A stretch of 17,107 nucleotides of DNA from Sulfurimonas sp. Lineage in GTDB: Bacteria > Campylobacterota > Campylobacteria > Campylobacterales > Sulfurimonadaceae. Below the pieces are notes generated by a model. It was not told where the DNA came from. It made no database searches and saw only the letters and a program-made list of their open reading frames with translations. Positions within the stretch are counted from its first letter, which is position 1, and the number at the start of each line of letters is the position of its first letter. The translations under genes and the position numbers were made by a program. Positions 368-15,357 of the stretch are shown piece by piece. The DNA is taken from contig JAUSKV010000201.1 of assembly GCA_030646745.1 (NCBI GenBank), forward strand, positions 1 to 17,107. Reading direction: 5' to 3'.

Positions 368-398
368 AGAAATTTTATTTTATCGTATAAGTTATTTA

Positions 399-412
399 GC
401 ATTTAGCGTTCC
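399..412 (-). promoter_or_regulatory. Sigma-54 (RpoN) promoter for flgE
   Basis: The minus strand reads TTGGAACGCTAAATGCTA. GG (412-411), ten bases, then GC (400-399) is the invariant -24/-12 spacing, with further matches to the TGGCAC-N5-TTGC consensus. It begins directly after the stop codon of the FlgE-family gene and predicts a start near 387. Hook genes in this phylum are known to be RpoN/FlgR dependent. The same TTGGAAY-N6-TGCTA pattern recurs at 4416-4429 and 4438-4451. Confidence 0.75.
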
Positions 413-415
413 AAG

Positions 416-1675
416 TTATTTGTGCATACTTAAAGCTTTTTGTATCATTTGATCTGCTGTGGTTACACATTTTGAACTGGCGTCATATGCTTTTTGATGT
501 ATTATTAAATCTGTTAACCCTGTGCTCATTTGAACATTTGAACCCTCTAGTTTGTAGTTCATAATACTTGCACCGACGCTGTCATTGCCCGCTGCATCTT
601 TAAAAAAGATTGCATCTCCGCTATTGGAAGATTTAGAAAATTTTGTTCCGGTTACTCTGTCTAAGCCTTGATCATTTTGAAAATGGTAAACAGCAATTTT
701 CCCGACACTGCTTTGCTTACCGTTTGTAAAAGCAGCTATAACTTCTCCATTTTGGTTAATTGAATACCCTTCCAGATTCCCGCCAATTGTTCCATCAGCT
801 ATACTCGAACTTGATTTATAAATTCCATTCATAGTAACAATTCCACTATATCCACTTCCTAAATTCATTGTTACGTTTGTTCCATTGTTGTCAATGGTTG
901 TTAATGTGGTTGAAAGTAAGTCTCCATTTTCGCCAAACTCGGCAGTTCCTGTTTTTGTATCATATGTAGTTAATCCATCTAAAGATTTAGCAGTTGCTAC
1001 AACATCCCATTGACTCCCGGGAGGAGTTTGAGTGGAACTTTTGGTAAATTCTAATTTCAAACTATTTTTATTACCTGCTGAGTCAACAATCCCAACCCCA
1101 ACAGGTACTGTTTCTGTGCCAAGACCCAGATTAGCAAAGAACTTTGCATTTGTTGTCGGTTCCGGCGGATAGGTTAAATATCTTGGAAATTGTAGTTTTT
1201 CTTGAGCACCTGCAGCACTTAGAGGTATTTCATTCAGTGTTTTTGTAAGAGTATCATTAGAGATATTTCCGCCCATTGTTCCCAAAACATGAAAGCCGTC
1301 ATTGGTTACCAAATCATCATTGGCATCAAAAGAGAAAGCTCCATCGCGGGTGTATAAAGGTTCACCGGAAGATTGTATGCCAAACCATCCATCCCCGTTA
1401 ATTGCTAAATCGGTACTTTTCTCTGAGAGTATTGCAGAACCATTTTGCATATTCATAGTTGTTGCAGATACTCTTGTACCAACCCCGGTTTGACTATTCG
1501 CACTTGAACCTGCAGAAGTTGAATGGAGTGCATTTTCAAAGAGTGATGAAAACTCTGCACTATATCCGCGAAACCCGTTTGTACCGACATTCGCCAAGTT
1601 GTCAGATATTACATCAATGGCTGTTTGGTTACTTTTAAGAGCAGATATTCCGGTATAAAAAGCTTGAGTCATCAT
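416..1675 (-). CDS. Second FlgE-family hook/basal-body protein (419 aa)
   Basis: This is a flagellar hook/rod-family protein. The N-terminus has the family motif DNLANVGTNGFRGYSAEF; residues ~85-120 hold the STDLAINGDGWF and YTRDGAFSFDANDDL signature of the FlgE/FlgF/FlgG core; the C-terminal helix KLEGSNVQMSTGLTDLI is the Flg_bbr_C motif. At 419 residues it is much shorter than the major epsilon hook protein (~700-850 aa), so it is probably the FlgE homologue that accompanies flgD and fliK in this phylum. C403 in the C-terminal helix is unusual, since cysteine is rare in exported flagellar axial proteins. The first of two tandem ATG codons fits AAGGA at 7-nt spacing. No clear promoter of its own was found, so it may be read through from fliK-flgD. 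It could be annotated flgE1 or flgE2 depending on convention. Confidence 0.9.
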   Translation of the reverse strand: MMTQAFYTGISALKSNQTAIDVISDNLANVGTNGFRGYSAEFSSLFENALHSTSAGSSANSQTGVGTRVSATTMNMQNGSAILSEKSTDLAINGDGWFGIQSSGEPLYTRDGAFSFDANDDLVTNDGFHVLGTMGGNISNDTLTKTLNEIPLSAAGAQEKLQFPRYLTYPPEPTTNAKFFANLGLGTETVPVGVGIVDSAGNKNSLKLEFTKSSTQTPPGSQWDVVATAKSLDGLTTYDTKTGTAEFGENGDLLSTTLTTIDNNGTNVTMNLGSGYSGIVTMNGIYKSSSSIADGTIGGNLEGYSINQNGEVIAAFTNGKQSSVGKIAVYHFQNDQGLDRVTGTKFSKSSNSGDAIFFKDAAGNDSVGASIMNYKLEGSNVQMSTGLTDLIIHQKAYDASSKCVTTADQMIQKALSMHK

Positions 1676-1929: not shown

Positions 1930-2628
1930 TTAATACACTTCTTTTACATTTTCAAGCGGAATATAGCTCGAACCTAGCTTCACTAAAGTTTTTCCATTTT
2001 CAAATCGAACCGATTCAATAGGATATGCACCCACTCTGCTTGTATATTTTTCTCCATCACTGCCTACATATTTGGCGTTTACATGATAAATGCTGCTCTG
2101 AGCGCTATTTCCTTTATCATCCTTACCATTCCAGTCAAACTGATATACGCCAGGCTCTTTTATGGTGCGTATCTTTCCATCTTTATCTTTTTGTTGCTGA
2201 GTATCCATAGTAGCAACTACATTGCCTTTTACATCACTTATTTCTATAGTACCTGAGGCTATATTTTCTGGGAAATACATCTCAAATGAAGATGTTTTAC
2301 CCTCATCAAGCGATATAGAGTCGCTGCCTAAATCCGCTCTCTTTCCAATAGCAGCAACGGAGGCAAACTGATCCGTACTCCCCAATGAAGCTGTTAAAGC
2401 CGTTAAAGCCGTATTCGTTTTATCCGCTGCTTCAATAGTTGCTAGTTGAGTAGTTTGCGTTAAAATTTGCTCACTCTCCATAGGCGCAGTTGGATCCTGA
2501 TGCTGAAGTTGAACCAAAAAAAGCTTCATAAAATCATCTTTTCCTAAAGCAGTTTTATCTTTTGCAGTTGCTGCTGCCGCAGTAGCTGTTGCTGTTGCGG
2601 CATTTTCGCCTGTTGCTGTAATTGCCAT
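1930..2628 (-). CDS. flgD: Flagellar hook assembly (capping) protein FlgD
   Basis: FlgD caps the growing hook and lets FlgE subunits assemble; it is exported by the flagellar type III system and then lost. After an Ala/Thr-rich first ~25 residues the protein has LGKDDFMKLFLVQLQHQDP and PMESEQILTQTTQLATIE, which is the diagnostic FlgD N-terminal domain. Residues ~115-232 fit the FlgD Ig/Tudor-like region, with a GVYQFDWNGKDDKG segment typical of it. At 232 aa it has the usual length. ATG is preceded by AAAGGAAA. It follows fliK by 14 bases, so the two are almost certainly cotranscribed from the sigma-54 site at 4416-4429. Confidence 0.95.
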   Translation of the reverse strand: MAITATGENAATATATAAAATAKDKTALGKDDFMKLFLVQLQHQDPTAPMESEQILTQTTQLATIEAADKTNTALTALTASLGSTDQFASVAAIGKRADLGSDSISLDEGKTSSFEMYFPENIASGTIEISDVKGNVVATMDTQQQKDKDGKIRTIKEPGVYQFDWNGKDDKGNSAQSSIYHVNAKYVGSDGEKYTSRVGAYPIESVRFENGKTLVKLGSSYIPLENVKEVY

Positions 2629-2642
2629 TTGTGGTATTTCCT

Positions 2643-4379
2643 TTAAATATATTTAGGAACGACTATTTCTAAAGAGCTTAATATCTCTTCATTTTTTTCT
2701 TCGTTCTCAAAATAGTTATACTCTTTATGAGCCTCTTTTTCTTGCTGTTTTTGCCCTTGCTGCTGGCTTGAAGCAGAGTTATCAGAGCTGTTACTAAAAT
2801 TTAATGTAGCATTATTTATTCCACTATTATTTAACTGTGTTTTTAACTCCATTATATTTGCCGAGAGGGTGTTGATTGCGGTTGAATTTGAGCTGATATT
2901 GACATGTAAATTGCTGCCTCTTTGCACTACCGTCAACTCTACATCACCGAATTTTTCGGGATTAAGCTGCACTTTAACTCTGGTAAATGGTGATTTGTAA
3001 TCTTCGATTGCAGTTTTAACATCCGCTGAGAGATATTTTATCATCTGCTTTGCTTCATTGATTTTCACCTCAAAGCTATCGGCTTTATGTACGCTCAATC
3101 CATCTAGTTTTGAGTTTTTAGAGCTATCAACTTTTGATTCTGTATCGCCGACTAAAAGTTTTTCAAATGGGTTTTGGGATTCGTTTTTTGATTCAGAAGA
3201 AACAGTAGATTCTATCGCCCTCGCTGCAACAACAGAGACATTACTAGCAAGTGCAGATATGCTTTGCGTTGGTTTTTCTCCATTAAGAAGTGATTTTAGA
3301 GTCTCATCAGCTTTGTTTTTAGTGGTTTTTTCTTCAACTTTCAGTGTTCCGCCGGATTTAGCCTGAACCAACTGCTCTGTTGTGTGTTCTGCCGGTGCCC
3401 AGGTTTTTAAAAGTGGTGCAGCTTTTGTTTCTTTTGTTTTAGGCTCTTCGATTGTTGTTATTTTATCAGATTGAACCACATCTCTATCATTTTTAACTTC
3501 AGCTTTGAACTCTTTAGTCTGCGGAGCTTTTACTTTCTTTTCTTTACTATCAAAAACTTCTGTTTTTATCTCTTTAGTTTGTGGAACTTCTACGGTAGCC
3601 ATCTCTTTTGTTTGAGAAACTGGTTGAATTTTGGCTTCTTTAGATACGTTTTTAACTTGTGAAGTTTCTGCAACATTTATCTCTTTTGCACTCTCTTTCA
3701 CAGTTGGTTTAATTTGTGAGACTTCTGTTTTAAGTGCTTCTTTTAAAGGCTCTTTTACTGTTTTGGCTGATTGAACCTCTTGAGACGGACTCTCTTTTGT
3801 AGTTCTGAGAATGTGAGTTTCTGTCGGTTTGGTATTCGGTTTATTAGTTTTTACCTCTGGACGAACATCTTCAATCGTTATTTTACTAATATCTATGCCA
3901 AACTTTTTGCCTACTTCAACTAGGCCTTTGAGTGTTTTTGGAAGCTCTTTTATTTCGGATTTTTTATAATCGTCACTCTCAATAATTTTAGATTTCAGAT
4001 ACTCTTTGGCATCTTTTACTAGAACCTTTAGCTCTTCTTTGCTGAGTGATAAGGTTATTTTTGGGTTTAATTCAAAGGGTGCTGTTGCTTCTTTGAACTC
4101 AGCTTTTAACTCAACTTTTGAATCTACTGATTTAACATCTCTGTTTTTAAGCAGCGATGTTAAAGTTTCAGTTTTTGTAGATGCTTTTGTGCTCTTTGCA
4201 TCTTTTTCTACACTCGGCAGAGATAAAACTAAAGCCCCGTTTTGAACAGGTTGAGTCTCTTTTTTGCCGCTTATTCCTTTTAAAAGTTCAGAGAACGACA
4301 ACTTTGATTTATCTTCTTTTGTCACTAAACTGATGGGCGATGATGAACTGTTTTTTGTTTTTACATCGAATGAAATCAT
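2643..4379 (-). CDS. fliK: Flagellar hook-length control protein FliK
   Basis: FliK measures hook length and switches export specificity from hook to filament substrates. The C-terminal ~100 residues contain VKVQLNPEKFGDVELTVVQR and an NISSNSTAINTLSANIMELK helix, the Flg_hook domain of FliK; the end is Gln/Glu/Lys-rich. The long N-terminal and central part is low-complexity and Lys/Glu/Thr-rich with recurring QTKE / SQTKE / PQTKE segments, as expected for the ruler region. I choose the ATG at 4377-4379 (MISFDVK, GGAG at 5-nt spacing), giving 578 aa. An upstream TTG at 4397 would lie only ~7 nt from the predicted sigma-54 start point and lacks a Shine-Dalgarno. First gene of the hook block; divergent from the outer-membrane gene at 4484. 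Confidence 0.9.
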   Translation of the reverse strand: MISFDVKTKNSSSSPISLVTKEDKSKLSFSELLKGISGKKETQPVQNGALVLSLPSVEKDAKSTKASTKTETLTSLLKNRDVKSVDSKVELKAEFKEATAPFELNPKITLSLSKEELKVLVKDAKEYLKSKIIESDDYKKSEIKELPKTLKGLVEVGKKFGIDISKITIEDVRPEVKTNKPNTKPTETHILRTTKESPSQEVQSAKTVKEPLKEALKTEVSQIKPTVKESAKEINVAETSQVKNVSKEAKIQPVSQTKEMATVEVPQTKEIKTEVFDSKEKKVKAPQTKEFKAEVKNDRDVVQSDKITTIEEPKTKETKAAPLLKTWAPAEHTTEQLVQAKSGGTLKVEEKTTKNKADETLKSLLNGEKPTQSISALASNVSVVAARAIESTVSSESKNESQNPFEKLLVGDTESKVDSSKNSKLDGLSVHKADSFEVKINEAKQMIKYLSADVKTAIEDYKSPFTRVKVQLNPEKFGDVELTVVQRGSNLHVNISSNSTAINTLSANIMELKTQLNNSGINNATLNFSNSSDNSASSQQQGQKQQEKEAHKEYNYFENEEKNEEILSSLEIVVPKYI

Positions 4380-4415
4380 TTTATCTCCATATGACAAAGG
4401 GTTTTACATGTATTA

Positions 4416-4429
4416 GCATTTATTATTCC
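4416..4429 (-). promoter_or_regulatory. Sigma-54 promoter for fliK-flgD
   Basis: Minus strand TTGGAATAATAAATGCTA: GG (4429-4428), ten bases, GC (4417-4416). Predicted start near 4404, about 25 nt before the fliK ATG, leaving room for its GGAG site. This also supports the ATG over the upstream TTG as the fliK start. Confidence 0.75.
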
Positions 4430-4437
4430 AAAATTTT

Positions 4438-4451
4438 GGAACATTTAATGC
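4438..4451 (+). promoter_or_regulatory. Sigma-54 promoter for the SPOR-like outer-membrane protein gene
   Basis: TTGGAACATTTAATGCTA: GG (4438-4439), ten bases, GC (4450-4451). Predicted start near 4463, leaving a 21-nt leader that contains AAAGGGG (4472-4477) before the TTG start at 4484. It differs from the flgE promoter mainly in the spacer. Confidence 0.75.
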
Positions 4452-4483
4452 TATCTATTCAAAATTATTATAAAGGGGTGCTT

Positions 4484-5326
4484 TTGAAATTATTTTATTT
4501 TCTTCTTGTCTGTCTCTTCTTTTCAGCTTCAGTTTTTGCTGATTCCAAATATGTATTAGTTACAAAAACAAAAAGTGAGACTGAATTGCCCTACATAAAA
4601 GCTAAACTTAAAAAATTAGAACTCAATATGGTTGCCTACAAATCTGAAGATGAATATAGTGTGTATTCCGGTGCTTTTAAGAACCATAAATCTGCAATTA
4701 TTGCATTGCAGAGTATTCAAAGCTATTTTCCTGAAGCAGTTGTAGTCTCTTTTGATTCACAAGCAAGCCAAGAAGAAAGAGGAATTTCAAAGGAGGGATA
4801 CTATTTTGTAAATGGTTCATTCGCATCTTTAGGAGTTCCGTTTGCTCATTCTGTCCGAGAAGGAAATATAACGATAAATTCAATTGGTACAAGTGCTATG
4901 GGATATATTTTTGAAGCGGGATATAACTTTGAAAATAATATTTTTATGACTTTAAGCTATTTGAATGTAGCCTCAACTACAAATACAATTGCAAATATTT
5001 ACAGTACAGTCAATTATAAGATGAGAATAGGTCAATTTGAGCCATATGTCGGAGTATTGGGTGGATTAAGCACTCTTAGCTGGACAAAGCCCCCGATGTT
5101 AAATGCAGACAGCGGAGCCGACAGTAGTTTGTTGTATGGTGCTCAAACCGGATTAAGCTATGAGACAGGATTTAGCAATTTAGCACTCTTTATAAACTAC
5201 CAGTTCACTTTTATGAACCATGAAACACCTCTAGCAATTAAAAGCGGAGCGACTACAACAGCGTCTTCAACGCTCACTCAAAACATTATGCATGGAATAA
5301 ATCTAGGAATTCAATATAGATTTTGA
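4484..5326 (+). CDS. SPOR-like/beta-barrel outer-membrane protein (280 aa, TTG start)
   Basis: The signal peptide is LKLFYFLLVCLFFSASVFA followed by DSKYV. Residues ~20-90 (YVLVTKTKSETE, YSVYSGAF, SAIIALQSIQ, FPEAVVVSF) look like a SPOR-type repeat of the kind that binds peptidoglycan. From ~100 to the end are alternating aromatic strands (FEAGYNFENNIFMTLSYLNV, YVGVLGGLSTLSW) finishing in LGIQYRF, a C-terminal aromatic typical of outer-membrane barrels. I choose TTG at 4484 because AAAGGGG precedes it at 6 nt and the result has a compact signal peptide; in-frame upstream codons would precede the predicted transcription start. It is paralogous to the gene at 16045-16896. Divergent sigma-54 control with fliK suggests co-expression with the hook; a flagellar role is inference. 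Confidence 0.8.
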   Translation: MKLFYFLLVCLFFSASVFADSKYVLVTKTKSETELPYIKAKLKKLELNMVAYKSEDEYSVYSGAFKNHKSAIIALQSIQSYFPEAVVVSFDSQASQEERGISKEGYYFVNGSFASLGVPFAHSVREGNITINSIGTSAMGYIFEAGYNFENNIFMTLSYLNVASTTNTIANIYSTVNYKMRIGQFEPYVGVLGGLSTLSWTKPPMLNADSGADSSLLYGAQTGLSYETGFSNLALFINYQFTFMNHETPLAIKSGATTTASSTLTQNIMHGINLGIQYRF

Positions 5327-5333
5327 AAAGTTG

Positions 5334-5765
5334 CTAGAAGTCTGAGTAGTTTAGATTCACTTCCATCTCAACTTCGCATAATCCATCTTTAAAAATTGTA
5401 TTCACGATTGTTGCATTTTTGATTATATTTTGAACATGTGCTCTGACTTCCGAACGAGTTACCTGCATATTTTTAATTGTGTCTTGACCTTCAACTGATA
5501 CGCCTTTTATGCGTTCAGCTATAAGTCTGTAACCATCTACCATGGCAGCACGCTTTGCAAGGGCTTGAGCTTGAGCCGGCATTGTTGTAAATGCAGGAGC
5601 AACACCTTGACCAAATACAGTAATTCTTACATTCTTTTCAGGTTTTAATACAAGACTCTCATCCAAATCTTTTACTTCTTGCATTTTGCCCGATGGAAAA
5701 CCGTCAGCTGCAGAAGCAGCAGAGAAGTTACCGATACAAAATATAAATAAAATTAAATATTTCAT
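5334..5765 (-). CDS. LPP20-family (FlgP-like) periplasmic protein
   Basis: The LPP20 family includes Helicobacter Lpp20 and Campylobacter FlgP, an outer-membrane-associated ring protein needed for motility. A signal peptide (MKYLILFIFCIGNFSAASA) ends before ADGF. Residues ~65-143 contain AQALAKRAAMVDGYRLIAER, KGVSVEGQDTI and a C-terminal EVEMEVNLNY strand, the usual LPP20 pattern. The only cysteine in the signal region is C10, preceded by Phe, which is not a good lipobox, so this member is probably soluble or peripheral rather than a lipoprotein; the family is often lipidated. AGGA precedes the ATG. It converges on the 4484 gene with a 7-base gap and has its own extended -10 promoter. Assigning it as true FlgP would need orthology. 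Confidence 0.75.
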   Translation of the reverse strand: MKYLILFIFCIGNFSAASAADGFPSGKMQEVKDLDESLVLKPEKNVRITVFGQGVAPAFTTMPAQAQALAKRAAMVDGYRLIAERIKGVSVEGQDTIKNMQVTRSEVRAHVQNIIKNATIVNTIFKDGLCEVEMEVNLNYSDF

Positions 5766-5794
5766 TAAAATTCCTAACTTAAATTTTCACAGGC

Positions 5795-5803
5795 ATTATA
5801 GCA
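5795..5803 (-). promoter_or_regulatory. Extended -10 promoter for the LPP20 gene
   Basis: Minus strand TGCTATAAT is a perfect extended -10 element about 30 nt upstream of the ATG. A -35 box is weak (TTTAAT-like, poor spacing), as is common in this phylum. It overlaps the end of the upstream barrel gene. Confidence 0.6.
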
Positions 5804-5816
5804 AAAAGCATATAAA

Positions 5817-6638
5817 TTAAAACGCGTACTTAATGCTAAACTTATTTCCTATAGTTCTAAAGTCGATATGATCTTTCTTTTCGATAGCTTGAAAATCTTC
5901 ATACATGTAGCTATAACCTAAATAAATATTTTTGATAACTTGATACTCTATACCAAACTGATAGCTAGTAGCTTTGGATTCTGAATAGGAGAGGGAGCTT
6001 ATATTTCCAAAGAGAACAAAGTTGTAGCGGTAATATTTAAAGCCTGCATATGGCAATACAATAAGAGCATCTACTTTGTCATACATATAGATTGCAGATG
6101 GGTTTGCATTATCTTTCATCCGTACAAGATAATCAATTACTTTTAAGTTTGCCCCAATGTCAAGCTCTATGTCGCCTAAGTAAAATCCTTTTTTTACTGC
6201 GCCTTTTGCCTTAAAGTCTTGAAAAAATACTGCATTGAGCACCTTATAATCTATATTTGTAGCTGCATTCGTAAAGGGTGTTGAAACCATTGTGACACCG
6301 CGAGAGATATTAACATCGTTCTTTTGCGTCATGTTAAAGTAGCTGATATAGATATTTGGCACATAGTCGTAATCAAATCGTGTCTCCACTGAAAAAAATG
6401 ATGAAGCTGTATTAGCATATTTAAAATCATCTTTGAAGTCAATAACAGAGGGAGCTGCATTCGATAGGGTTCCTTGAAAGTCCGACAGATAGATTGCAGC
6501 TTCAACTGTAGGATGTATTTTTGTGTACCATGCAGTATCTTTTGCGTAATCTTCACCCTTGGCACTCTCTGCAAGAAGCGATTCACCTGCATAAGCAGAT
6601 ACAAACATAACAAACAATAAAAAAAACTTTAACAACAT
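5817..6638 (-). CDS. Outer-membrane beta-barrel protein (273 aa)
   Basis: The signal peptide MLLKFFLLFVMFVSAYA is followed by GESLL. The rest is a run of amphipathic strands (VEAAIYLSDFQG, FSVETRFDYDY, NIYISYFNMTQK, FYLGDIELDIGANLKVIDY, YQFGIEYQV, IYLGYSYMYEDF) ending in FSIKYAF, the C-terminal aromatic signature recognised by the barrel assembly machinery. It resembles the small TIGR04219-type barrels seen in epsilonproteobacteria, but that placement is from memory. The ATG has AAAAGGGG at 6 nt. It lies between two envelope genes on the same strand, with a predicted promoter at 6672-6679. Substrate or function cannot be inferred. Confidence 0.8.
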   Translation of the reverse strand: MLLKFFLLFVMFVSAYAGESLLAESAKGEDYAKDTAWYTKIHPTVEAAIYLSDFQGTLSNAAPSVIDFKDDFKYANTASSFFSVETRFDYDYVPNIYISYFNMTQKNDVNISRGVTMVSTPFTNAATNIDYKVLNAVFFQDFKAKGAVKKGFYLGDIELDIGANLKVIDYLVRMKDNANPSAIYMYDKVDALIVLPYAGFKYYRYNFVLFGNISSLSYSESKATSYQFGIEYQVIKNIYLGYSYMYEDFQAIEKKDHIDFRTIGNKFSIKYAF

Positions 6639-6671
6639 AAAAAACCCCTTTTCACCTTTTTAATTGCAAGT

Positions 6672-6679
6672 ATTTTAAC
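6672..6679 (-). promoter_or_regulatory. Candidate extended -10 promoter for the barrel gene
   Basis: Minus strand TATGTTAAAAT gives TG-N-TAAAAT about 34 nt before the ATG at 6638. The identical 11-mer precedes the lipoprotein gene at the right edge (16985-16995), supporting it as a housekeeping -10 of this genome. Confidence 0.5.
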
Positions 6680-6704
6680 ATAATATTTAAATTACCGCAG
6701 AAAC

Positions 6705-9008
6705 TCATGATGCATTTGTATCGGTATATCTGTAAACTTTAGTAAACTCTATTTCACTTGATACATTTGAGTCTAATTTAGCCCTTTGGCATTCATACAA
6801 GCCATTGGTATCTTTTGGCGTTTGTATATAAATCTGCTTGCCTGTGTTTGCCCATGCTTTGTCAAAGGCAAAATAGTAGCTATCTTGAAAAATAGTTACG
6901 CTTGCATTGGTTTTTGTTGCACCTATGAGCGGGTAGTAGAGTATAACTCTATTTGCTGACTCAAATCCTGAGTTATTGTTAAAATTAAGCGTAAGACCAT
7001 TTACAGAGTCGCTTTCTCTTATTGCTTCAGTCGCATTACTATCAATTAAAGTGTTTTTATAATACGAATCTTTTATGCATGCGAATGCATCAAAAACTGC
7101 ATCTGTTTTGTCAAATATGCTGTATGTTACACTCTCTGCAGTAACATTCATATCAACATAAGTAGAGTTAGTATATGCCGGTTCTAAAGCAGTCTCAACA
7201 ATCGACTGGAGTCTTGGAAGTGTCCACTCATATATATTTGCATCTGTTGAGAGCAGAGCAAATACTCTTTTCACCTCTGCTATTTGTGATATTGCAAATG
7301 TTCTATTACCATCTGAAATTATAATATTCATATCTAGTTCAAGTACCGATAAAACTTCTGATATACTCAAATTTTCATATCCGCTATCTAAAACCCGAGT
7401 CAATAGTGCATTTTTTATTTTGTTCTGCAAATCTTTTTTTTGAACTTCTGTTAATGTCTTGGACATCACTTTTTTTGCTACAAATTCTATGAGTGATTTT
7501 GTAATTTGTATCTCTTGTGAGAGGGCAAAGAGTTGAATATTTTGCATGGTATCGCTTACAATATCACTGCTACTGAAGCCAAACGCATCTCCAATTTTGG
7601 TCACAGAAGCTTCCAATGCTGCCTTATCTTTCATGACCGACTGAAAAAAGAGAATTTTAGCCAAATCTGTAAATGGAGTTAAGGCAATTTTGGTAGCAGG
7701 AAGCGTACTATTTACATCCAATATATTCTGAAATTCGCCCGAAAAAGATTTACTTGTTGCTATATCTGTTCCGCCAAATCCTACAAGAGGAATCATTGTG
7801 TTTTTATTGACTTTGATATTAGAAAAACTGAATGTCCCGTCGCTGAGTGTAGTTGCCGATGGTTCGGTTGTGCTACATACGCCGTTGCTGTCTAAATCTA
7901 AGCAGACTTTAGCTCCGCTGATGTAGCCATCCACCATAAGACCTCCAAAAGAGAGTGTTGTCGTGTTACTCTCAGCCGGTACAGTCGAGTTTGTATCGGT
8001 CGTATTTGTGTCTGTAGTGTTCGTATCTGTGGTATTCGTGTCTGTGGTATTCGTGTCTGGAACGGCAAAGATATCTATATTTATTTTCATAGGAGTAAGA
8101 GAAGCTCCGCTAGTCGCATTCTCTAGTGAGGTAATTACTTTCTCTTGCTCTGTCTCTAAAGCTACTTGATAACTATTAAGATTTGCGGCGGTTAAATTTT
8201 TGTTTGCAACAAAAGAGTCTATTGCCACCTTAAGTTCTGCCACTTGCGCTATAAGAAAAGTTTTTTCATTTGCCGGAATGGTAATGCTAGAGAGTGTTTC
8301 AAGTTTTGTTAGTGCTTTTTCTATATTTATATCTACATCTTCACTAATCTGCGTGAGTATTGCACTTTTTATCTCTTTGCGGAGCTGAAGCAGTTGTACA
8401 GATGTCAATGAGATACCTTTTGCTTTGGCAGCGGCAGCTTCAATGAGTGCTAGAGTCTGCTGAATCTCTTGTGTTATTGCAAATACACCGGCATACTGCA
8501 TAGGGCTTTTATTGATATACCCTTCTGAAATTCTATAGGCAACTGCTACTTGCTTGATAGAGGTTTGCAGCGAAGAGTAAGTTTGTGCTGACGAATTAAG
8601 AAATGAGGTGGCAACCATGTCTGTTAATGGCGTAACAAAAAGCTGCCTAGCTTGTGGTGCATTATCTGTGTCAACAATGCTCTTAAATTTGCCGGTAAAG
8701 CTTTTGTTTGTCGCTGTATCTACACCGCCGCTTGCTATGACCGGCATATAGAGCGTGCCTGTTACATTTATGTCTCCAAAGCTAAATGCTCCGCTGTTTG
8801 AGGTAAGGGTAGATGGCTCGCTCACATCGCATGAACCGTTCATATTAAGGTCTAAGCAGACGCTTGAATTTTTTATGTAGCCATCGACAACAGCACCGCT
8901 GAGAGTTATTTCTTTTGTTGTGCTTCCCGTACTGCTGCTTGTTGTTTCACAGCCGGTAAAAAAGATTAAAGATATATAAGTAAAAAATAAAGAGACCAAA
9001 TATTTCAA
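6705..9008 (-). CDS. Lipoprotein with duplicated ~300-aa unit and two-cysteine C-terminal domain (767 aa, TTG start)
   Basis: A lipoprotein signal ends FFTGC (C20). Two homologous halves follow: VVDGYIKNSSVCLDLNMNGS at ~40 and MVDGYISGAKVCLDLDSNGV at ~358, each with a DxNxNG-like loop, an EP, a GxFSF strand, a TPLTD/TPFTD motif and then a long helical stretch (AITQEIQQTLALIEA / ALSQEIQITKSLIEF). They are joined by five DTNTT-type repeats (~316-340). The last ~130 residues are a separate domain with C~640 and C~740 (AVFDAFAC, RVILYYP, AFDKAW, LYECQR, FTKVYRY) shared with the proteins at 9790 and 14353. The start codon is TTG at 9006-9008, preceded by GGGAG, and puts the lipobox at the normal place. 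Probably anchored at the outer membrane; function unknown. Confidence 0.8.
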   Translation of the reverse strand: MKYLVSLFFTYISLIFFTGCETTSSSTGSTTKEITLSGAVVDGYIKNSSVCLDLNMNGSCDVSEPSTLTSNSGAFSFGDINVTGTLYMPVIASGGVDTATNKSFTGKFKSIVDTDNAPQARQLFVTPLTDMVATSFLNSSAQTYSSLQTSIKQVAVAYRISEGYINKSPMQYAGVFAITQEIQQTLALIEAAAAKAKGISLTSVQLLQLRKEIKSAILTQISEDVDINIEKALTKLETLSSITIPANEKTFLIAQVAELKVAIDSFVANKNLTAANLNSYQVALETEQEKVITSLENATSGASLTPMKINIDIFAVPDTNTTDTNTTDTNTTDTNTTDTNSTVPAESNTTTLSFGGLMVDGYISGAKVCLDLDSNGVCSTTEPSATTLSDGTFSFSNIKVNKNTMIPLVGFGGTDIATSKSFSGEFQNILDVNSTLPATKIALTPFTDLAKILFFQSVMKDKAALEASVTKIGDAFGFSSSDIVSDTMQNIQLFALSQEIQITKSLIEFVAKKVMSKTLTEVQKKDLQNKIKNALLTRVLDSGYENLSISEVLSVLELDMNIIISDGNRTFAISQIAEVKRVFALLSTDANIYEWTLPRLQSIVETALEPAYTNSTYVDMNVTAESVTYSIFDKTDAVFDAFACIKDSYYKNTLIDSNATEAIRESDSVNGLTLNFNNNSGFESANRVILYYPLIGATKTNASVTIFQDSYYFAFDKAWANTGKQIYIQTPKDTNGLYECQRAKLDSNVSSEIEFTKVYRYTDTNAS
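7989..8060 (-). repeat. 15-bp in-frame minisatellite encoding (DTNTT)n
   Basis: About five tandem 15-bp units encode Asp-Thr-Asn-Thr-Thr in the linker between the two halves of the 767-residue lipoprotein. Units differ by synonymous changes (Asp GAC/GAT, Thr ACA/ACT), so they are not freshly expanded. Copy-number change would lengthen or shorten the linker without breaking the frame. Confidence 0.8.
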
Positions 9009-9127
9009 GCAGATACTCCCACCATATAGATGGGGTGCATTTTATCTTAATTTATCTTTATCTCTTTTAAATGGAGTGAAGCCAATGTTTCGATATGGTA
9101 TCGCTTTCGAGGGAACATAAGATTTTC

Positions 9128-9334
9128 TTAAATTCTGTTGGCTGTTTTTTTGTAAACTTCCATGCTATCTCTTTTACCTACTGCAATAACAAATACTTCT
9201 ATTTTATTTTCAATAATTTTATAAACTATCCTTACTCTCTTATTGTTAACATACGCTTTTTTTAGTCCTGCTAGATTATTATTGGCTTTGTTCCCAAGGT
9301 CATCACCTATAAGTGGATTTTGAGCTATTTTCAA
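9128..9334 (-). pseudogene. RelE-like toxin lacking its N-terminal third (68 codons)
   Basis: The sequence KIAQNPLIGDDLGNK, LAGLKKAYVNNKRVRIVYKI, EVFVIAVGKRDSMEVYKK matches the core and C-terminus of RelE/ParE-superfamily toxins, including the Arg-rich RVRIVY strand and the VIAVGKRD strand. Family members are usually ~85-95 aa and begin with a beta-strand and a two-helix hairpin before the IAQNP-type segment; those ~25 residues are missing. The frame upstream is open for only about eight codons and encodes nothing toxin-like, and the antitoxin stop lies 12 bases away, so the start of the gene appears deleted. A TTG at 9332-9334 could start a 68-residue product without good Shine-Dalgarno support. 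Inactive remnant is my preferred reading; a short active variant is possible. Confidence 0.7.
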
Positions 9335-9345
9335 TAGTAAATATA

Positions 9346-9645
9346 TTAGTTTAGCTTGTCTAAATCTATATCAAATGATTTTGCCATCTCTTCAAGGGAA
9401 ATAGTTTTGTATGGCTTAGAAGTTCTTTCTTTGATTATGTTGTAAATTTCTTGATGCTCCAGTAATTCTAAAGCCTCACTCATTTTTTCGTACGCATCTT
9501 TTGAAATTAAAACGGCTTCAACTTTATTATTTTTTAGTATTGCAAACTTGTCTATGGTACTATCTTTGATTTGAGATAAATAACTTCCAAATTTTTTAGC
9601 AAACTCTGATGATGGAATGAGTTCGTTTGTTGCATAAGTTACCAT
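9346..9645 (-). CDS. Phd/YefM-family antitoxin
   Basis: This 99-residue protein matches the Phd/YefM antitoxin family: an N-terminal DNA-binding half (TNELIPSSEFAKKFGSYLSQ, FAILKNNKVEAVLISKDAYEKM) and a C-terminal helical tail (LELLEHQEIYNIIKER, SLEEMAKSFDIDLDKL) that would wrap the toxin. The ATG has AAGGGGAA upstream. It is followed 12 bases on by the truncated RelE-like toxin, so it may survive as an orphan repressor or as protection against related toxins elsewhere. Two TATTGTA direct repeats at 9675-9692 in its promoter are a likely autoregulatory operator. Confidence 0.85.
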   Translation of the reverse strand: MVTYATNELIPSSEFAKKFGSYLSQIKDSTIDKFAILKNNKVEAVLISKDAYEKMSEALELLEHQEIYNIIKERTSKPYKTISLEEMAKSFDIDLDKLN

Positions 9646-9674
9646 GGCTTAATTCCCCTTGATATATTCCGTAA

Positions 9675-9692
9675 TATTGTACGCGTATTGTA
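9675..9692. promoter_or_regulatory. Candidate antitoxin operator/promoter
   Basis: Two TATTGTA direct repeats are spaced 11 bp apart (one helical turn) around a TACGCGTA palindrome. On the minus strand each reads TACAATA, resembling -10 boxes, ~30-45 nt before the antitoxin ATG. Overlap of operator and -10 fits Phd/YefM autorepression; this is inference. Confidence 0.45.
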
Positions 9693-9737
9693 ACGTATTT
9701 TGTGTAAAATTTATATAGAATTGAAGTGAGAAGATAT

Positions 9738-9766
9738 GCCATCGCTTCCGAGAAGGAAGGGATGGC
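9738..9766. terminator. Strong hairpin downstream of the envelope operon
   Basis: GCCATC-G-CTTCC and GGAAG-G-GATGGC form an 11-bp stem with one G:G mismatch and a GAGAA loop, 24 bases after the stop of the 261-residue gene. There is no T-run directly after it on the minus strand, so it may be a transcript-end stabiliser or a dispersed palindrome rather than a classical terminator. Confidence 0.5.
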
Positions 9767-9789
9767 TTGGCTGACGAGAAAGTTTTGTC

Positions 9790-10575
9790 TTAGTTTTTTA
9801 TACTCTCGAGGGGCACCGAGATCTCTTTTAAAGTAGGGAAGGGTGGTATTTTCATGGATGGAAAAATACCCTCAAAGCACTTTTGCTCTTTGAAGTCATA
9901 AACAAAAAACTTTTTGGCTTCATACTCTTTGCTAAATTCAAAAAAACTTTTTGGCATGGCTGGACCGTACTTGTAGCTTCTTTTTGTTTTTGCTTCTACT
10001 TTTGGGTAAATTAACACAATGCGTGTGTCGTTATAAATTCCCTTTTCATGGTGTGAAAAGTAGCGAGATTTTGCACTCATTGTTTCATCTTTACTTAGAA
10101 CGGAATCTTGAGTTCTTCCAGAATCGAGCAAAAAGTTATATTGTTTATCTTCCAAAATCTTTTGACATGCAGAGTTTATAGTATTACTTTTTATATCCAC
10201 TTTTACACCAGAATCAGCCAGTACAAAAAAGGTTACATTAGGCTCCAAATATTTTAGGAGCAACAAATCTCCGGCTAATTTCTCATGTGAAAATACCGCC
10301 CACAACTTACTTACACTGTCATAAACAACTACATATTTCAGCTCTGAAGCTTCGCCAAAAGTTGCTGCAACATCCACACCATCCAGAGGAGTTGTAAGTC
10401 TGTTCCAACCTTTTTTTAAGTCGTATGTTTTTGAGTTGTAAAGTACGGAAGTGTTAGGAATTTCTTTTGAGAGAATCTCTCTCTCGGTTTGAGAGAAAGA
10501 TGGAGAGAGTTCTTGCAAAGAGTTTGCAAGAAGCGTTATACAAAATAGTGAAAGGGTAAAGAACTGCTTCATCAT
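9790..10575 (-). CDS. Secreted protein with GWN module and two-cysteine C-terminal domain (261 aa)
   Basis: No known family is recognised. A signal peptide (MMKQFFTLSLFCITLLANS) is clear. Residues ~50-130 form a module KKGWNRLTTPLDGVD, KYVVVYDSVSKLWAVF, FFVLADSG resembling the GWN / YD-W / YWV modules found in the 1238-residue neighbour. Residues ~133-240 (INSACQKI, RIVLIYPKVEAKTK, FFEFSKEYEAKKFFVYDF, EQKCFEG) align with the C-terminal domain of the proteins at 6705 and 14353, keeping both cysteines ~97 residues apart. It is the last gene of the operon, 21 bases after the giant gene; GAGG at 8 nt from the first ATG lies in the 3' arm of the 30-bp hairpin. Likely periplasmic or surface located. 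Confidence 0.7.
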   Translation of the reverse strand: MMKQFFTLSLFCITLLANSLQELSPSFSQTEREILSKEIPNTSVLYNSKTYDLKKGWNRLTTPLDGVDVAATFGEASELKYVVVYDSVSKLWAVFSHEKLAGDLLLLKYLEPNVTFFVLADSGVKVDIKSNTINSACQKILEDKQYNFLLDSGRTQDSVLSKDETMSAKSRYFSHHEKGIYNDTRIVLIYPKVEAKTKRSYKYGPAMPKSFFEFSKEYEAKKFFVYDFKEQKCFEGIFPSMKIPPFPTLKEISVPLESIKN

Positions 10576-10583
10576 TGCATAAA

Positions 10584-10613
10584 CCTCATTAGCTCCTTAA
10601 GGAACTAATGAGG
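10584..10613. promoter_or_regulatory. 30-bp palindrome over the stop codon of the giant gene
   Basis: Arms CCTCATTAG and CTAATGAGG flank TCCTTAAGGA, giving a 30-bp palindrome with a single mismatched pair. It encodes the last four residues and the TAA stop of the 1238-residue protein and carries the GAGG Shine-Dalgarno of the next gene in its 3' arm. In RNA it would form a ~13-bp stem-loop centred on the stop codon. Confidence 0.8.
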
Positions 10614-13600
10614 TATTTACAGTACCGGTAATTGCTGTTAAATCTATTGGAGCAGCTATACTCGCATCTGCAGCAATTTGAGTTGCAGGGAATGTACCTC
10701 GATAAATTGCACCGTTATACTCTACGAAGAATGTATCACCTGCATACGCAACCACATTCTGAATCTGAACTACTGCGCCTGCGCCACCAGTTATTTCATA
10801 GTTCGCAGTCCATGCAACATCTTGTGTAAAGTTTGCATTTGTTATTGGCGTAAACGACATACGAGCAGTTGCTCCAGTCGCGAGTGCAGCCAAACTTACC
10901 CCAGCGTTTTCACTTGGAAGTGTTTGCGTAGCAGTATTCACACATGCCGTGCTATACACAGAACCAATCTGAGATTTTAAGCCAACACCTTGAGTGTGTG
11001 TTAATACCGTAGCTCCTCTGAGTGCGCTTGCATAGGTAACCTCTTTAGCATCCGAAACATTTGAACTATTCAGAGCACCATCCGCTGCAACTATTCTTAA
11101 AATATTTGTTGTACCAAAAGTAAACTCTGAACAAGCGTTAAATGTCGCTGCACTTGCCGTAGCCGGAAGTGTTTTTACTATGGCAGCAGTTCTTACAGAT
11201 TCTACTTCCGGAATATTATTGCTAAACACATAGAAGTTCGATGGAGTTCCCGTTGCGCCTAAAGTTATACTTGTAGCGCCTGAAGCGACCGGTGTAGTCA
11301 TAACCGGAGCAGCAAAGTCAATACTAACAACACCGCTAGCTGAAACAGCTTGACCTTTACCGTTTACGGCTCGCACTGTAATATAGATCGGTCCCGTTTG
11401 GTTTTGAATAAACTCTCTTAGTGCATAGGTTGATACATCTGCTGTAAATATATTTGTAGTGCCTGTTCTTGTTAATGCAACATCTTCACCGCCGACAGTA
11501 AGGTATGCTGAACTAGCTACCGTATCATCAAGTCCTGTGATAGTTACAGATATTTGACCGCTGTTCATGATATTTGTTGTCGCTAAACCGGCTGCATTAC
11601 TGAAGTAGTATGTATATGCAGAAGGTGTAAATGTAGCCGAAACTATCGAAACAGTATCTGCTGATTTATTTTCTAAGTAAACCCAGTAACCGGCATTATG
11701 GTTAATATTGAAGAGATTAAACTCGTTGTTTAAGAACCACTCACTTTCGTTACGCGTAATATCTATACTGTCCCAAGCAATAGCACTTGATGTATTCGTA
11801 TCTAACTCAGTTGTAGCTTTTAAGATAGCTCTTACATCATATCCCGTTCCGGCATTACGAAGCGTGTAGAGCGGACCATAATTAGCATAGTTAGGTGAAG
11901 CTGCAGGGTTTGTTTTAAGGTCTTCAACCAAATCGCCTAAAGTTATACCGGAACCTAATTTTAATGCTGTAGCTGTATTTATATCATTTGCCGAAACTGT
12001 CAATCCAGAGCCACTAACGGTATTGTTTAAATCAAAGACTGTTATGCCGACGCCCGCAACTGTGATATTTACATCTGCATTGTCTGTAGCCGAATTGTAA
12101 TTATGGCTTGCAGATCCATGTACGCCCAGAGTAGTTTGTATTATGGTATTAATTCCGGCAACCAAGGCATTAAAATATGCTAATCTAGTTGCTGCAGTAG
12201 TACCGAGTGCAGGAGCCGTTACAGTTGTAGTCGTTGCATTAATAGTAACATTCGTATCAAGAGCTGCAGCAATATAAGTAGTACTCATTTGAGGACTCAC
12301 AAACGAGTGCTGAATGAGAGGCAGTCTTGCAACGCCATCAAGAGAGTAAACTCCTCCCACGGCACCTTTAGCAAAATTTGTAGTTGTTGTGCTGGCAGAG
12401 ATTACATCTATGACGCCATGCGGAGTATCTTTGATATCAAAAGAAGAGGTACTATTTGTTACGGCTACAATTTTTGAAACTGTTTCTGTAGCAGTTACCG
12501 TAGTAGCATTTGCATCAATGAGTGATGTTGCCGCTACAGCATGTATGTTATTGGCTAAAGTAGCTGCTGAAATTCCCGAACTAACTGTTGTGGCTGCACT
12601 TCCGGAAACTGTAACATTTCCATCAACTGCCCCGACACGAGCAAAAACACGAGTATAGGTATTATCTTCAAGCGTGTAAGGTACACTATGGGCTACGATG
12701 AGCATGTCCGCCGTGCCATCAAAATCCGTATCTATCTGTGTAGCTGTAGGAGTAGAACCAGCTATAGCTTCAATATTTGTTTCTGCAGTACCAATATTTG
12801 TTAAAATATTTGCTGTTGCAGAACCACCTGTTGTATCGGTACTTGCAAATTTGAGCTTAGAACCGGTAGCATCGGCACCATTGGAAGTTAGTATAGCACT
12901 AGAAGTACCGGCACCCGTAAAAGTTTGTACAATTGTTGCATATTCGCCATACGCTGAGGTAGCTTTATAACCAAGAGCAGAGGTGGCATTTAAATCGACA
13001 ACCGCTGCTTGGACACCATTCACAAACGGATTTCCAGCGTTTAATGTTGTTACTCCTACGCCTCCGCCTATATCAGCAGTACTAACCGAGAACTTTCTGT
13101 CTGAGATAAAAACCATAGTTCCTGCAGCCGAACCTTGGAACACTTTTATATTAAATGTTTGAGGAAGAGTACCAAGAAGTTTCGCAGACTCTATTGCTTT
13201 GTTGATGGCAATAGCATCAGTATGATTACCGGCAGCAGCAATTGCAGCAGTCGTAATAGAGTTTAGTCCGGAGTCGTCCGTAATTATAAATTTATCCGTG
13301 TTGGCTACAGCAGTAAGAACTAAACCTGTTGCTGCATGACGGATATATGGTTTGTGGTCGTCAAATGACAACATGTTCCATCCCGCCGTAAGCGTGCTTA
13401 CATTGCTCTCATCTTGATACATTGCAGGATCCGGAATACCGCTAAGTTCAGCTACAGTACCAAGTATTAGACCTGTCGCACCGTCTTGATCCGGATTTAA
13501 ACCTCCAAGAGCATCTACTCTATCTGCTCTACCCCAATATGCCTTACCTGCAGTAAAGCTAGTGAAATCTTGAGCAGCCGTAGGAGCACCTTTTTGATTT

Positions 13601-14313
13601 ACTTCCCACTGTTGCGTTAGAGCATTGAAGTGGTAAAAACTCGCCGTTGCACCGGTTGCTAAAAGATGAGTAGAAGCATCAAAATATTTTGCTTCAACCG
13701 GATTGTTAGTCATGTTAAAATCGAGCACGCCCGTAACTGTTTTAACTTTGTCTGTTGCAGTAACCACGGCACCTGAGCCCAAAGTAGCAGTTAAAGCATT
13801 TGCCCAAGTACTAGATTCAGTAATTGTTGCTGAATAGAGAGTTCCATTAAGTAAAATCTGTATCGCTTTACCCTCAAGAGAAGCTTTGTAGTTAAACTTT
13901 ACATTAGGAGTGCTAGAACCAACTTTCATGTATATACTGCGAACCGCTTCGGTAGCTTCGTATGCTGTTCCGGTTAAGTCAACTCCTACCGAAAGTGAGG
14001 CTATGACCGGACTAGTAGCAGGTAGCAGGGCTTGAAGCGATGCTAAATTTCCACCGCTAGAGAGACCGGCTGTTGCCATTTCATCAGTAACTACTGTATC
14101 TTCAAGCTCTGTAAGACCGGCAGAAAAAGAAGAACTACTTGTAGATACAGTGCTAGCAACACCATTACTAAAGCCATTCACGCCAAAGAGAGTCCAAACA
14201 CTGTCTGTTACCGTTGAAGACAACGGTAAGTATGTCGCAGCATCATCTGCTACTGCCATATTGCCTAGTGCCATAATAGTCACTAAACTTAATAAACTTT
14301 TTTTATAATTCAT
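10597..14313 (-). CDS. Giant Ala/Thr-rich secreted protein (1238 aa)
   Basis: A Sec signal peptide (MNYKKSLLSLVTIMALGNMAVA) precedes DDAATY. The mature part is very rich in Ala, Thr, Ser, Val and Asn with only two cysteines, typical of extended surface or fibre proteins. Recognisable pieces are SVWTLFGVNGFS (~40), YHFNALTQQWEV with AYWGRAD (~235-260), GWNMLSF (~310), a DTDFDGTAD calcium-loop-like motif (~530), NESEWFLNNEF with AGYWVY (~850-875), and an Ig-like stretch (~905-1010: ISVTITGLDD, ITVRAVNGKG, SIDFAAPV). I see no autotransporter barrel, sorting signal, RTX array or C-terminal barrel, so its export past the periplasm is unexplained. ATG has AAGGA at 6 nt. Third gene of the operon, following two lipoproteins. 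It could be an adhesin, S-layer-like or appendage subunit; no function is assigned. Confidence 0.8.
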   Translation of the reverse strand: MNYKKSLLSLVTIMALGNMAVADDAATYLPLSSTVTDSVWTLFGVNGFSNGVASTVSTSSSSFSAGLTELEDTVVTDEMATAGLSSGGNLASLQALLPATSPVIASLSVGVDLTGTAYEATEAVRSIYMKVGSSTPNVKFNYKASLEGKAIQILLNGTLYSATITESSTWANALTATLGSGAVVTATDKVKTVTGVLDFNMTNNPVEAKYFDASTHLLATGATASFYHFNALTQQWEVNQKGAPTAAQDFTSFTAGKAYWGRADRVDALGGLNPDQDGATGLILGTVAELSGIPDPAMYQDESNVSTLTAGWNMLSFDDHKPYIRHAATGLVLTAVANTDKFIITDDSGLNSITTAAIAAAGNHTDAIAINKAIESAKLLGTLPQTFNIKVFQGSAAGTMVFISDRKFSVSTADIGGGVGVTTLNAGNPFVNGVQAAVVDLNATSALGYKATSAYGEYATIVQTFTGAGTSSAILTSNGADATGSKLKFASTDTTGGSATANILTNIGTAETNIEAIAGSTPTATQIDTDFDGTADMLIVAHSVPYTLEDNTYTRVFARVGAVDGNVTVSGSAATTVSSGISAATLANNIHAVAATSLIDANATTVTATETVSKIVAVTNSTSSFDIKDTPHGVIDVISASTTTTNFAKGAVGGVYSLDGVARLPLIQHSFVSPQMSTTYIAAALDTNVTINATTTTVTAPALGTTAATRLAYFNALVAGINTIIQTTLGVHGSASHNYNSATDNADVNITVAGVGITVFDLNNTVSGSGLTVSANDINTATALKLGSGITLGDLVEDLKTNPAASPNYANYGPLYTLRNAGTGYDVRAILKATTELDTNTSSAIAWDSIDITRNESEWFLNNEFNLFNINHNAGYWVYLENKSADTVSIVSATFTPSAYTYYFSNAAGLATTNIMNSGQISVTITGLDDTVASSAYLTVGGEDVALTRTGTTNIFTADVSTYALREFIQNQTGPIYITVRAVNGKGQAVSASGVVSIDFAAPVMTTPVASGATSITLGATGTPSNFYVFSNNIPEVESVRTAAIVKTLPATASAATFNACSEFTFGTTNILRIVAADGALNSSNVSDAKEVTYASALRGATVLTHTQGVGLKSQIGSVYSTACVNTATQTLPSENAGVSLAALATGATARMSFTPITNANFTQDVAWTANYEITGGAGAVVQIQNVVAYAGDTFFVEYNGAIYRGTFPATQIAADASIAAPIDLTAITGTVNTSLVP

Positions 14314-14340
14314 AAACTATCCTTTTTAAAAATTTAATTT

Positions 14341-14356
14341 ATAGCACGAGTGCTAT
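14341..14356. promoter_or_regulatory. Hairpin at the stop codon of the 222-aa lipoprotein gene
   Basis: ATAGCAC and GTGCTAT arms with a 2-base centre; the TAG stop codon (14353-14355) is inside one arm. On the minus strand it is followed by AT-rich sequence and then the AAGGA of the giant gene. It is the second of three stop-codon hairpins in this operon. Confidence 0.65.
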
Positions 14357-15021: not shown

Positions 15022-15031
15022 ATACCTTACA

Positions 15032-15052
15032 CTCTTTCCTAACTAGGAAGAG
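15032..15052. promoter_or_regulatory. Hairpin at the stop codon of the small lipoprotein gene
   Basis: CTCTTTCCTA and TAGGAAGAG arms (one bulged base) around a 2-base centre, with the TAG stop (15039-15041) in the stem. It is the first of three such stop-codon hairpins in the operon and ends about 10 nt before the next start. Confidence 0.65.
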
Positions 15053-15287
15053 GCGGAGGTGTTCCTAGGGATGGGTTAAGACTAACGCCAAGTCCATTTC
15101 CGGTAGTTGTACCACTTACATTGCCATTATCGACGCCTGCAGGAGTTGTTGGTGTTGTTGTTGTACTTGTGTTACTTGTACTGCCACCTGTGCTACCGCT
15201 TGCTGAGGTTGCCCCACTACTACTCTCTCCACACCCTGCTAACATTAACATAGAAATGCTAGCCAAAAGGAAAATTCCTTTTTTCAT
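15039..15287 (-). CDS. Small Ser/Thr/Gly-rich lipoprotein (82 aa)
   Basis: The protein starts MKKGIFLLASISMLMLAGC, a textbook lipoprotein signal with cysteine at 19. The 63-residue mature part is low-complexity: Ser/Gly/Thr-rich, then TTTTPTTPAG, then a Gly/Asn segment and a proline-rich tail (LGTPPPLPS). No folded domain is visible, so it may be a spacer-like or accessory envelope peptide. AAAAGGAG lies 5 nt before the ATG, an excellent ribosome binding site. It is the first gene of the four-gene envelope operon and lies ~110 nt downstream of the predicted sigma-54 start. Low complexity makes homology searches uninformative, but signal, lipobox and Shine-Dalgarno argue that it is real. Confidence 0.8.
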   Translation of the reverse strand: MKKGIFLLASISMLMLAGCGESSSGATSASGSTGGSTSNTSTTTTPTTPAGVDNGNVSGTTTGNGLGVSLNPSLGTPPPLPS

Positions 15288-15357
15288 TTTAACTCCTTTT
15301 AAATTGAAAATTGTTTCATGTCTATATCGACAACATAAAACAATTTATTAATATAAA

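Follow-up and report, generated by a model that had tools for sequence, protein, structure and literature searches.

A 38-bp site between fliK and the divergent gene for a predicted outer-membrane protein, OM1, is probably a compact two-way RpoN promoter that could admit one holoenzyme at a time and would drive fliK-flgD-flgE leftward and OM1 rightward. This reading was drawn from the sequence of a 17,107-nucleotide stretch of Sulfurimonas DNA, here called the window, and from comparison with related genomes, the window's own genome being designated G000. An earlier note on the same DNA had described two divergent sigma-54 promoters fused into one 38-bp palindrome. Both promoter sequences were found, each with an exact GG-N10-GC, but perfect symmetry is limited to the inner 16 bp; over the full 38 bp the palindrome is partial, the two spacers being different.

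The features concerned are:

398-413, minus strand: sigma-54 sequence directly after the flgE stop codon (matrix score 22.7), facing the next leftward gene
416-1675, minus strand: flgE, hook protein (Pfam PF22692, PF06429, PF00460, PF07559)
1930-2628, minus strand: flgD, hook cap (Pfam PF03963, PF13860)
2643-4379, minus strand: fliK, hook-length control (Flg_hook domain, Pfam PF02120, E 9.5e-13)
2808-2823, minus strand: sigma-54 sequence in the 3′ part of fliK, 195 nt before flgD
4404, minus strand: predicted fliK transcript start, 24 nt from the -24 element
4415-4452, both strands: putative double sigma-54 core promoter, divergent, AGCATTTATTATTCCAAAATTTTGGAACATTTAATGCT
4430-4415, minus strand: fliK-side sigma-54 promoter sequence, TGGAATAATAAATGCT
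4426-4441: perfect 16-bp palindrome, TTCCAAAATTTTGGAA, two facing -24 boxes with an A/T centre
4432-4435: bases that both holoenzymes would cover, computed from -31 to -7 coverage (PMC2680985)
4437-4452, plus strand: OM1-side sigma-54 promoter sequence, TGGAACATTTAATGCT, with GG at 4438-4439 and GC at 4450-4451
4463, plus strand: predicted OM1 transcript start, 24 nt from the -24 element
4484-5326, plus strand: OM1, 280 residues, with a signal peptide (by eye), a SPOR-like fold and an eight-strand outer-membrane barrel (modelled)
15409-15424, minus strand: sigma-54 sequence TGGAACACTATTTGCT before the lip82-lip222-big1238 genes (matrix score 19.6)
16045-16893, minus strand: OM2, a paralogue of OM1, with a SPOR match slightly below the cut-off
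16939-16965, minus strand: sigma-28-like TTAA-N15-GCCGATAT before OM2, one of eight places in the window that match a loose regex

Two sigma-54 promoter sequences with facing -24 boxes

On both strands of 4415-4452, GG-N10-GC occurs in a TGGNAYRNNNNWTGCW context, and neither half departs from the consensus at any of the 11 scored positions. The earlier description of back-to-back -24 boxes inside a perfect 16-bp palindrome is borne out at 4426-4441: the centres of the two GG pairs lie 10 bp apart, and the -24 boxes have no bases in common. To score the halves we used a weight matrix derived from 71 fliK promoters of other genomes of the same genus, for which the median training score was 22.95. 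When all 16-mers of the window were ranked, the fliK half came first (24.4) and the OM1 half second (22.8). They were followed by three further sigma-54 sites at 22.7, 22.7 and 19.6, after which scores dropped to 5.4. Strict sigma-54 matches numbered five in the window, compared with a mean of 0.33 and a maximum of 3 in 100 dinucleotide shuffles. Counts of TGG-N10-GCA were uninformative (7 in the window against 6.5 expected); this pattern demands a final A, so both halves of 4415-4452 go uncounted.

The predicted starts at 4404 and 4463 are 59 bp apart. With these starts the leader before the fliK ATG (4379) would be about 25 nt long and that before the OM1 TTG (4484) about 21 nt, in agreement with the expectation of sensible leaders for fliK in one direction and for an outer-membrane gene, here modelled as a barrel, in the other. 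Both halves are very probably promoters.

The fliK operon holds further sigma-54 sequences. The one inside fliK recurs upstream of flgD in all 81 same-genus regions, and encodes GINNA, GIQNA or GINSA. The codons ATA and GCT were used there in all 79 framed cases (the 81 regions minus two without a fliK frame), compared with 0.49 and 0.36 across fliK. This codon bias at the equivalent of 2808-2823 suggests that flgD-flgE have a conserved promoter within fliK.

Conservation of the two halves

We detected flgD in 164 of 200 family genomes, 94 of which belong to the window's genus. Regions upstream of fliK were read in 81 of these 94 (80 and the window), leaving aside the other 13 and the other genera; two had no fliK frame and four were ended by contig ends, so that 75 were readable. 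With at least 10 of 11 positions required, and A, T or G permitted before TGC, a fliK-side sigma-54 sequence was found in 74 of the 75, the exception being G085. Four of the 74 start with AGG.

The double site is much rarer. A pattern with an inner gap of 0-24 matched in 3 of 228 family genomes (G000, G144 and G149) and its reversed control in none, and all three matches lie between fliK and OM1 with an identical gap. As this strict pattern required RTGCT, it missed the sites between Maf and PseB-like genes described below, and 3 of 228 is therefore a floor for double sites in general. A laxer pattern matched in 10 of the 228 genomes, again with no match for the reversed control: the same three, four with the Maf/PseB-like pair, G162, G104 and G052. 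The match in G162 has a gap of 24 and lies between the gene for a large repeat protein and a relative of OM1. Across the phylum, the double-site pattern matched in 3 of 397 genomes, namely G000 and two of another genus, where it has a gap of 14 and separates an FlgL/HIT pair.

Among the three genomes from which the fliK/OM1 double site is known, G144 has the same 38 bp as the window. G149 has 7 changes in the 38 bases, all outside TGG, TGCT and the three bases after TGG. One change replaces A by G before TGC, where G occurs in 18% of fliK promoters. The six central bases of G149 read AAACAT and are not self-complementary, so the centre of the palindrome is lost while both GG-N10-GC motifs are kept. 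It therefore appears, from this comparison of sequences, that the promoters rather than the palindrome are conserved.

The OM1 half was kept in three of the four genomes found with the fliK/OM1 pair. In the fourth, G145, whose OM1 is 53% identical, the fliK promoter is intact and an AGCATT arm is in register on the OM1 side, but the GG is absent. OM1 and fliK of G145 are on two contigs that have 55 identical bases in common at their ends. Its OM1 side carries TTAA-N15-GTCGATAC, a weak sequence that is sigma-28-like by regex and falls below the level of the flagellin-trained matrix (it is not among the 27 regions that pass, see below). The missing GG speaks against a double site kept in every genome with the pair; the earlier expectation that relatives with the gene pair would keep the dyad held for G000, G144 and G149 and failed once, in G145. 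More distant relatives of OM1, in G192, G174 and G162, have weaker sites resembling sigma-54 promoters at a distance of 52-59 nt upstream of the gene. These begin with AGG, and the G192 sequence, which is the same in G162, scores 7.7 on the fliK matrix.

Sigma-28 promoters opposite fliK in the genus

Opposite fliK, 49 of 74 regions (for example G163 and G109) carry the gene for a small, secreted-looking protein that has about 70-105 residues and the motif CRxVCDKK; the one member tested gave no Pfam match. Sigma-28 sites were called with a matrix built from 12 flagellin promoters, at a threshold equal to the 99% shuffle level. Sigma-28-type sites pointing away from fliK passed this threshold in 27 of the 74 regions and sites pointing toward it in 2, where chance would give 0.74; a regex used in place of the matrix yielded 28 of 74, with a chance expectation of 0.75. 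The small CRxVCDKK gene lies downstream of 25 of the 27 divergent sites, and 24 of the 49 genomes with this gene had no sigma-28 site above the level. In 5 of the 27 the TAAA box starts inside the fliK sigma-54 core, in 15 it lies 4-6 bp past the core and in the remaining 7 it lies 12-34 bp past it. Sigma-54 and sigma-28 promoters thus seem often to stand back to back at fliK in this genus. A second flagellar promoter set against that of fliK in about one third of regions is a more interesting finding than the double site.

The motifs used here agree with those from start-site mapping in Campylobacter jejuni, where CGATwt is given as the sigma-28 motif and GGaa-N6-tTGCTt as the sigma-54 motif (PMC3847290). 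By eye, G174, G156, G178 and G127 have a sigma-54 site facing away and a CGAT box toward an OM2-like gene. FliA scored over the cut-off in four of six genomes tested and slightly under it in G145; it was not recovered in the window's genome, which is incomplete, the assembly being 74% complete. Before OM1 in the window, the regex matches included no sigma-28 site of the form TAAA-N15-NNCGATWT. One flagellin gene of the window's genome (L319, contig C262) has the sigma-54 sequence TGGAACAGTAGTTGCT upstream, and no CGAT within 160 nt upstream.

OM1 and its gene cassette

No Pfam family matched OM1 over the cut-off. The best AlphaFold2 model, made with eight aligned sequences, had a mean pLDDT of 68 and a pTM of 0.51 (the other four models had a pLDDT of 35-47); in it a beta-alpha-beta-beta-alpha-beta unit precedes eight long strands. 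When this model was used in a Foldseek search, the NspA and OmpA barrels were the best PDB matches. With modest confidence, the most likely reading of OM1 is a barrel of the outer membrane that carries a SPOR-like domain in the periplasm. One relative, 83% identical, comes from a Sulfurimonas MAG; this record, like the named Sulfurimonas MAG that has a site in common with G171, puts the lineage close to Sulfurimonas.

OM1 heads a cassette common to G000, G144 and G149, which spans 4484-16893 in the window with OM2 at its other end and comprises OM1, an flgP-like LPP20 gene, a barrel gene, genes for large secreted-looking proteins and OM2. A diverged cassette, whole or cut by contig ends, was found in G162, G174, G156, G192, G178 and G145. 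In two of these, G192 and G178, the cassette has fliK on one side and the small CRxVCDKK gene on the other. Of 12 genomes searched for this small gene four have it, and the search did not find it in G000, G144, G149 or G145. The cassette, we infer, was inserted where fliK and the small gene had been neighbours.

Relative to the window, fliK of G149 is 80% identical and OM1 84%, whereas flgD is 58% identical (64% by another search); flgD of G144 is 81% identical. Protein identities for fliK and the nine cassette genes found in G149 range from 76 to 92%. These values suggest a block exchange in G149 with one end between fliK and flgD, and the contrast between fliK/OM1 and flgD suggests that G149 is a partly independent sample.

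Other promoter sequences lie within the cassette. As the loose regex matches eight places in the window, the sigma-28-like site before OM2 is weak on its own; its layout (GTCGATAT) can also be read upstream of OM2 in G144 and G149. The 16 letters of the sigma-54 site at 15409-15424 are identical in G144 and G149. Between this site and lip82 there is a sigma-28-like TTAA/TAAT...GTCGATAT at 15325-15351 on the minus strand, so the lip82 operon may be read from a tandem pair of flagellar promoters. The cassette also contains genes for a Phd/YefM-type antitoxin (9346-9645) and a ParE-type toxin (15572-15817), both on the minus strand and about 6 kb apart, with no counterpart in any of ten compared loci.

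Similar dyads elsewhere

Divergent sigma-54 dyads were also found between Maf and PseB-like genes in G200, G117, G138 and G171 (L346-L349), with gaps of 7, 7, 8 and 9. The Maf (PF20157, PF01973) and PseB-like (PF02719) domains were tested on a locus of a Sulfurimonas MAG, L257, which has a 39-bp site in common with G171. Maf and PseB-like genes are flagellin-glycosylation genes.

In named genomes, the dyad pattern with gaps of 0-20 matched at least 120 stretches. Among the matches listed, 33 of 120 were in short divergent intergenic places, where 1.5% of positions drawn at random from those loci fall, and 40 of 120 were inside called coding frames; in a listing of 80 of the at least 120 matches, 24 were in short divergent intergenic places against 1.8% of random positions. 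The matches listed include dyads between PHB depolymerase and GST genes of Hyphomicrobiales (L189, L199, L213, L229, L241 and others; gaps 0-16), the domains having been tested on L189 only. They also include an apparent proline-catabolism pair in Paenibacillus, named by eye, and an FlgL/HIT pair in Helicobacter, likewise by eye with the flagellin domain tested on L184. Another of the matches listed, L212, is a perfect palindrome beside a LysR regulator gene, and looks like an operator. Because operators are similarly enriched in divergent places, the survey supports, but does not prove, a class of facing sigma-54 promoters across bacteria.

RpoN, its activator and exclusive occupancy

Genes for RpoN and for an AAA+ activator are present in the window's genome. 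Two strong sigma-54-activator matches were obtained, one with receiver, AAA+ and Fis-type HTH domains (PF00072, PF00158, PF02954); this NtrC-type activator would be FlgR. Two rpoN genes were found in G000 (C53, L002), G144 (C11, L160) and G091, and the second rpoN of G000 has activator-interacting, core-binding and DNA-binding domains by domain scan. A second RpoN was considered as the reason for two promoters and rejected: G149 keeps the double site, and only one rpoN was found in it.

In another organism, sigma-54 has been modelled to cover -31 to -7, and the modelled activator hexamer also extends upstream of -24 (PMC2680985). Two holoenzymes placed in this way on 4415-4452 would overlap by 4 bp, from which exclusive binding is predicted; occupancy of the site by one holoenzyme at a time is a reasonable prediction of this model. 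The sigma-54 closed complex is described as stable (PMC2680985; PMC9770992). For sigma-70 bidirectional promoters, competition was reported only when one direction was substantially activated (PMC12825309).

A two-way promoter could work as follows. RpoN would transcribe both halves, and the NtrC-type activator would switch both on at the hook stage, which would place OM1 in the hook-stage regulon. Overlap of the closed complexes would let a template serve one direction at a time, so that the two outputs would compete under strong activation and hardly interfere under weak activation. The site would have arisen in a genus in which the fliK promoter often had an opposing sigma-28-type flagellar promoter. 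In the lineage of the window, the OM1-headed cassette would have taken the opposing place and either brought or acquired a sigma-54 promoter.

Alternative readings

The foremost alternative, which we regard as possible but distinctly less probable, is that two independent divergent sigma-54 promoters are close by chance, and that the genes are co-regulated without meaningful interference. In its favour, five sigma-70 bidirectional promoters were found to have a basal activity too weak for their two directions to compete (PMC12825309). Against this stands the stable closed complex of sigma-54 (PMC2680985; PMC9770992), because of which occupancy should matter more than it does for sigma-70.

The earlier note went further, and suggested that the exclusive geometry is itself a device forcing alternating or either-or firing of hook-length control and an envelope protein. 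The predicted 4-bp overlap speaks for such a device, and activated sigma-70 bidirectional promoters do show competition (PMC12825309). However, the inner gap varies at similar dyads (7, 7, 8 and 9 for Maf/PseB-like pairs, 0-16 for PHB depolymerase/GST pairs), which argues against a tuned spacing, and one sigma factor, and probably one activator, would serve both genes, which favours co-expression. Forced alternation is unlikely on this evidence and is speculation; simple co-regulation fits equally well. A fixed helical phasing of facing sigma-54 sites was likewise rejected, as the gaps differ at other dyads.

Something of a long shot is the conjecture that control of fliK in Sulfurimonas works by promoter hand-over. 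The RpoN holoenzyme at the hook operon promoter and a second flagellar holoenzyme would contend for one stretch of DNA, and occupancy by one tier would shut off the other. The second holoenzyme would be sigma-28 in many members of the genus and sigma-54 in the lineage of the window, and completion of the hook would flip the site from fliK to the opposite gene. If this were true, RpoN regulons would contain, in back-to-back promoters, a circuit element that recurs and has gone undescribed.

It is quite improbable that the fliK half alone is a promoter, the OM1 half being a mimic and OM1 being read from elsewhere. The fliK half is near-universal in the genus and the OM1 half occurs in three genomes, and G145, which has no OM1 half, has a weak sigma-28-like sequence instead. 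But the score of the OM1 half is that of a real fliK promoter, its TGG and TGCT are unaltered in G149 despite the 7 changes in 38 bases, and no sigma-28-like site was found before OM1 in the window.

An operator for a dimeric regulator, suggested by the perfect 16-bp palindrome and by the frequency of operators in divergent intergenic regions, was rejected as extremely improbable: G149 loses the palindrome at its centre and retains both promoters with GG/GC and spacing, two facing -24 boxes of the kind usual in this genus would produce the inner TTCCA/TGGAA, and the strict pattern found no second arm at the fliK promoter in the other family genomes among the 228.

Comparison with known systems

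The preferred reading, a two-way RpoN promoter occupied by one holoenzyme at a time, predicts that an unstudied surface gene cassette belongs to the flagellar regulon. The genus offers a series in which sigma-54 and sigma-28 promoters stand apart, abut or overlap, together with the sigma-54/sigma-54 case, and this series would be a test of how promoter overlap couples flagellar tiers. The stability of the sigma-54 closed complex should make competition cleanly measurable. No description of facing -24 boxes or of back-to-back sigma-54/sigma-28 promoters was found in the literature searched, which covered few subscription journals.

The hyc/hyp region of E. coli, in work attributed to Lutz in 1990, is said to have divergent sigma-54 promoters that are well separated, with activator sites between them. 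Both that region and 4415-4452 have two RpoN promoters pointing apart, but here the -24 boxes leave no room between them. Johansson in 2008 reportedly described a divergent sigma-54/sigma-70 pair, non-overlapping by its title, in which the sigma-54 holoenzyme controls the other promoter. An RpoN holoenzyme affecting its divergent neighbour would be common to both cases; in that pair, however, only one half is sigma-54.

At glmY/glmZ, overlapping sigma-54 and sigma-70 promoters let two holoenzymes compete for overlapping DNA, as is predicted for 4415-4452, but they serve the same gene with different sigma factors (PMC3844500). In E. coli, spacers between divergent units hold 17 of the 71 peaks of RpoN holoenzyme, and sgrR and sgrST are both assigned to RpoN with NtrC (PMC8743547). 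The sgrR/sgrST pair is the nearest likeness in the literature searched; the excerpts of that report used here do not give facing -24 boxes.

The sigma-70 bidirectional promoters of Warman, Grainger and colleagues (PMC12825309) combine a short pseudo-symmetrical sequence, two transcripts and mutually exclusive polymerases, as is predicted for 4415-4452. They share a -10 element, and their starts are usually 10, 18 or 23 bp apart. At 4415-4452 there is no such shared core element and the predicted starts are not spaced by about 10-23 bp; instead the site has distinct back-to-back -24 boxes, its predicted starts lie 59 bp from one another, and an ATP-driven activator is needed. Bidirectional promoters are known as a kind, and what would be new is a version built from sigma-54 elements. 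Such a version, with facing -24 boxes, would extend bidirectional promoters to activator-dependent transcription.
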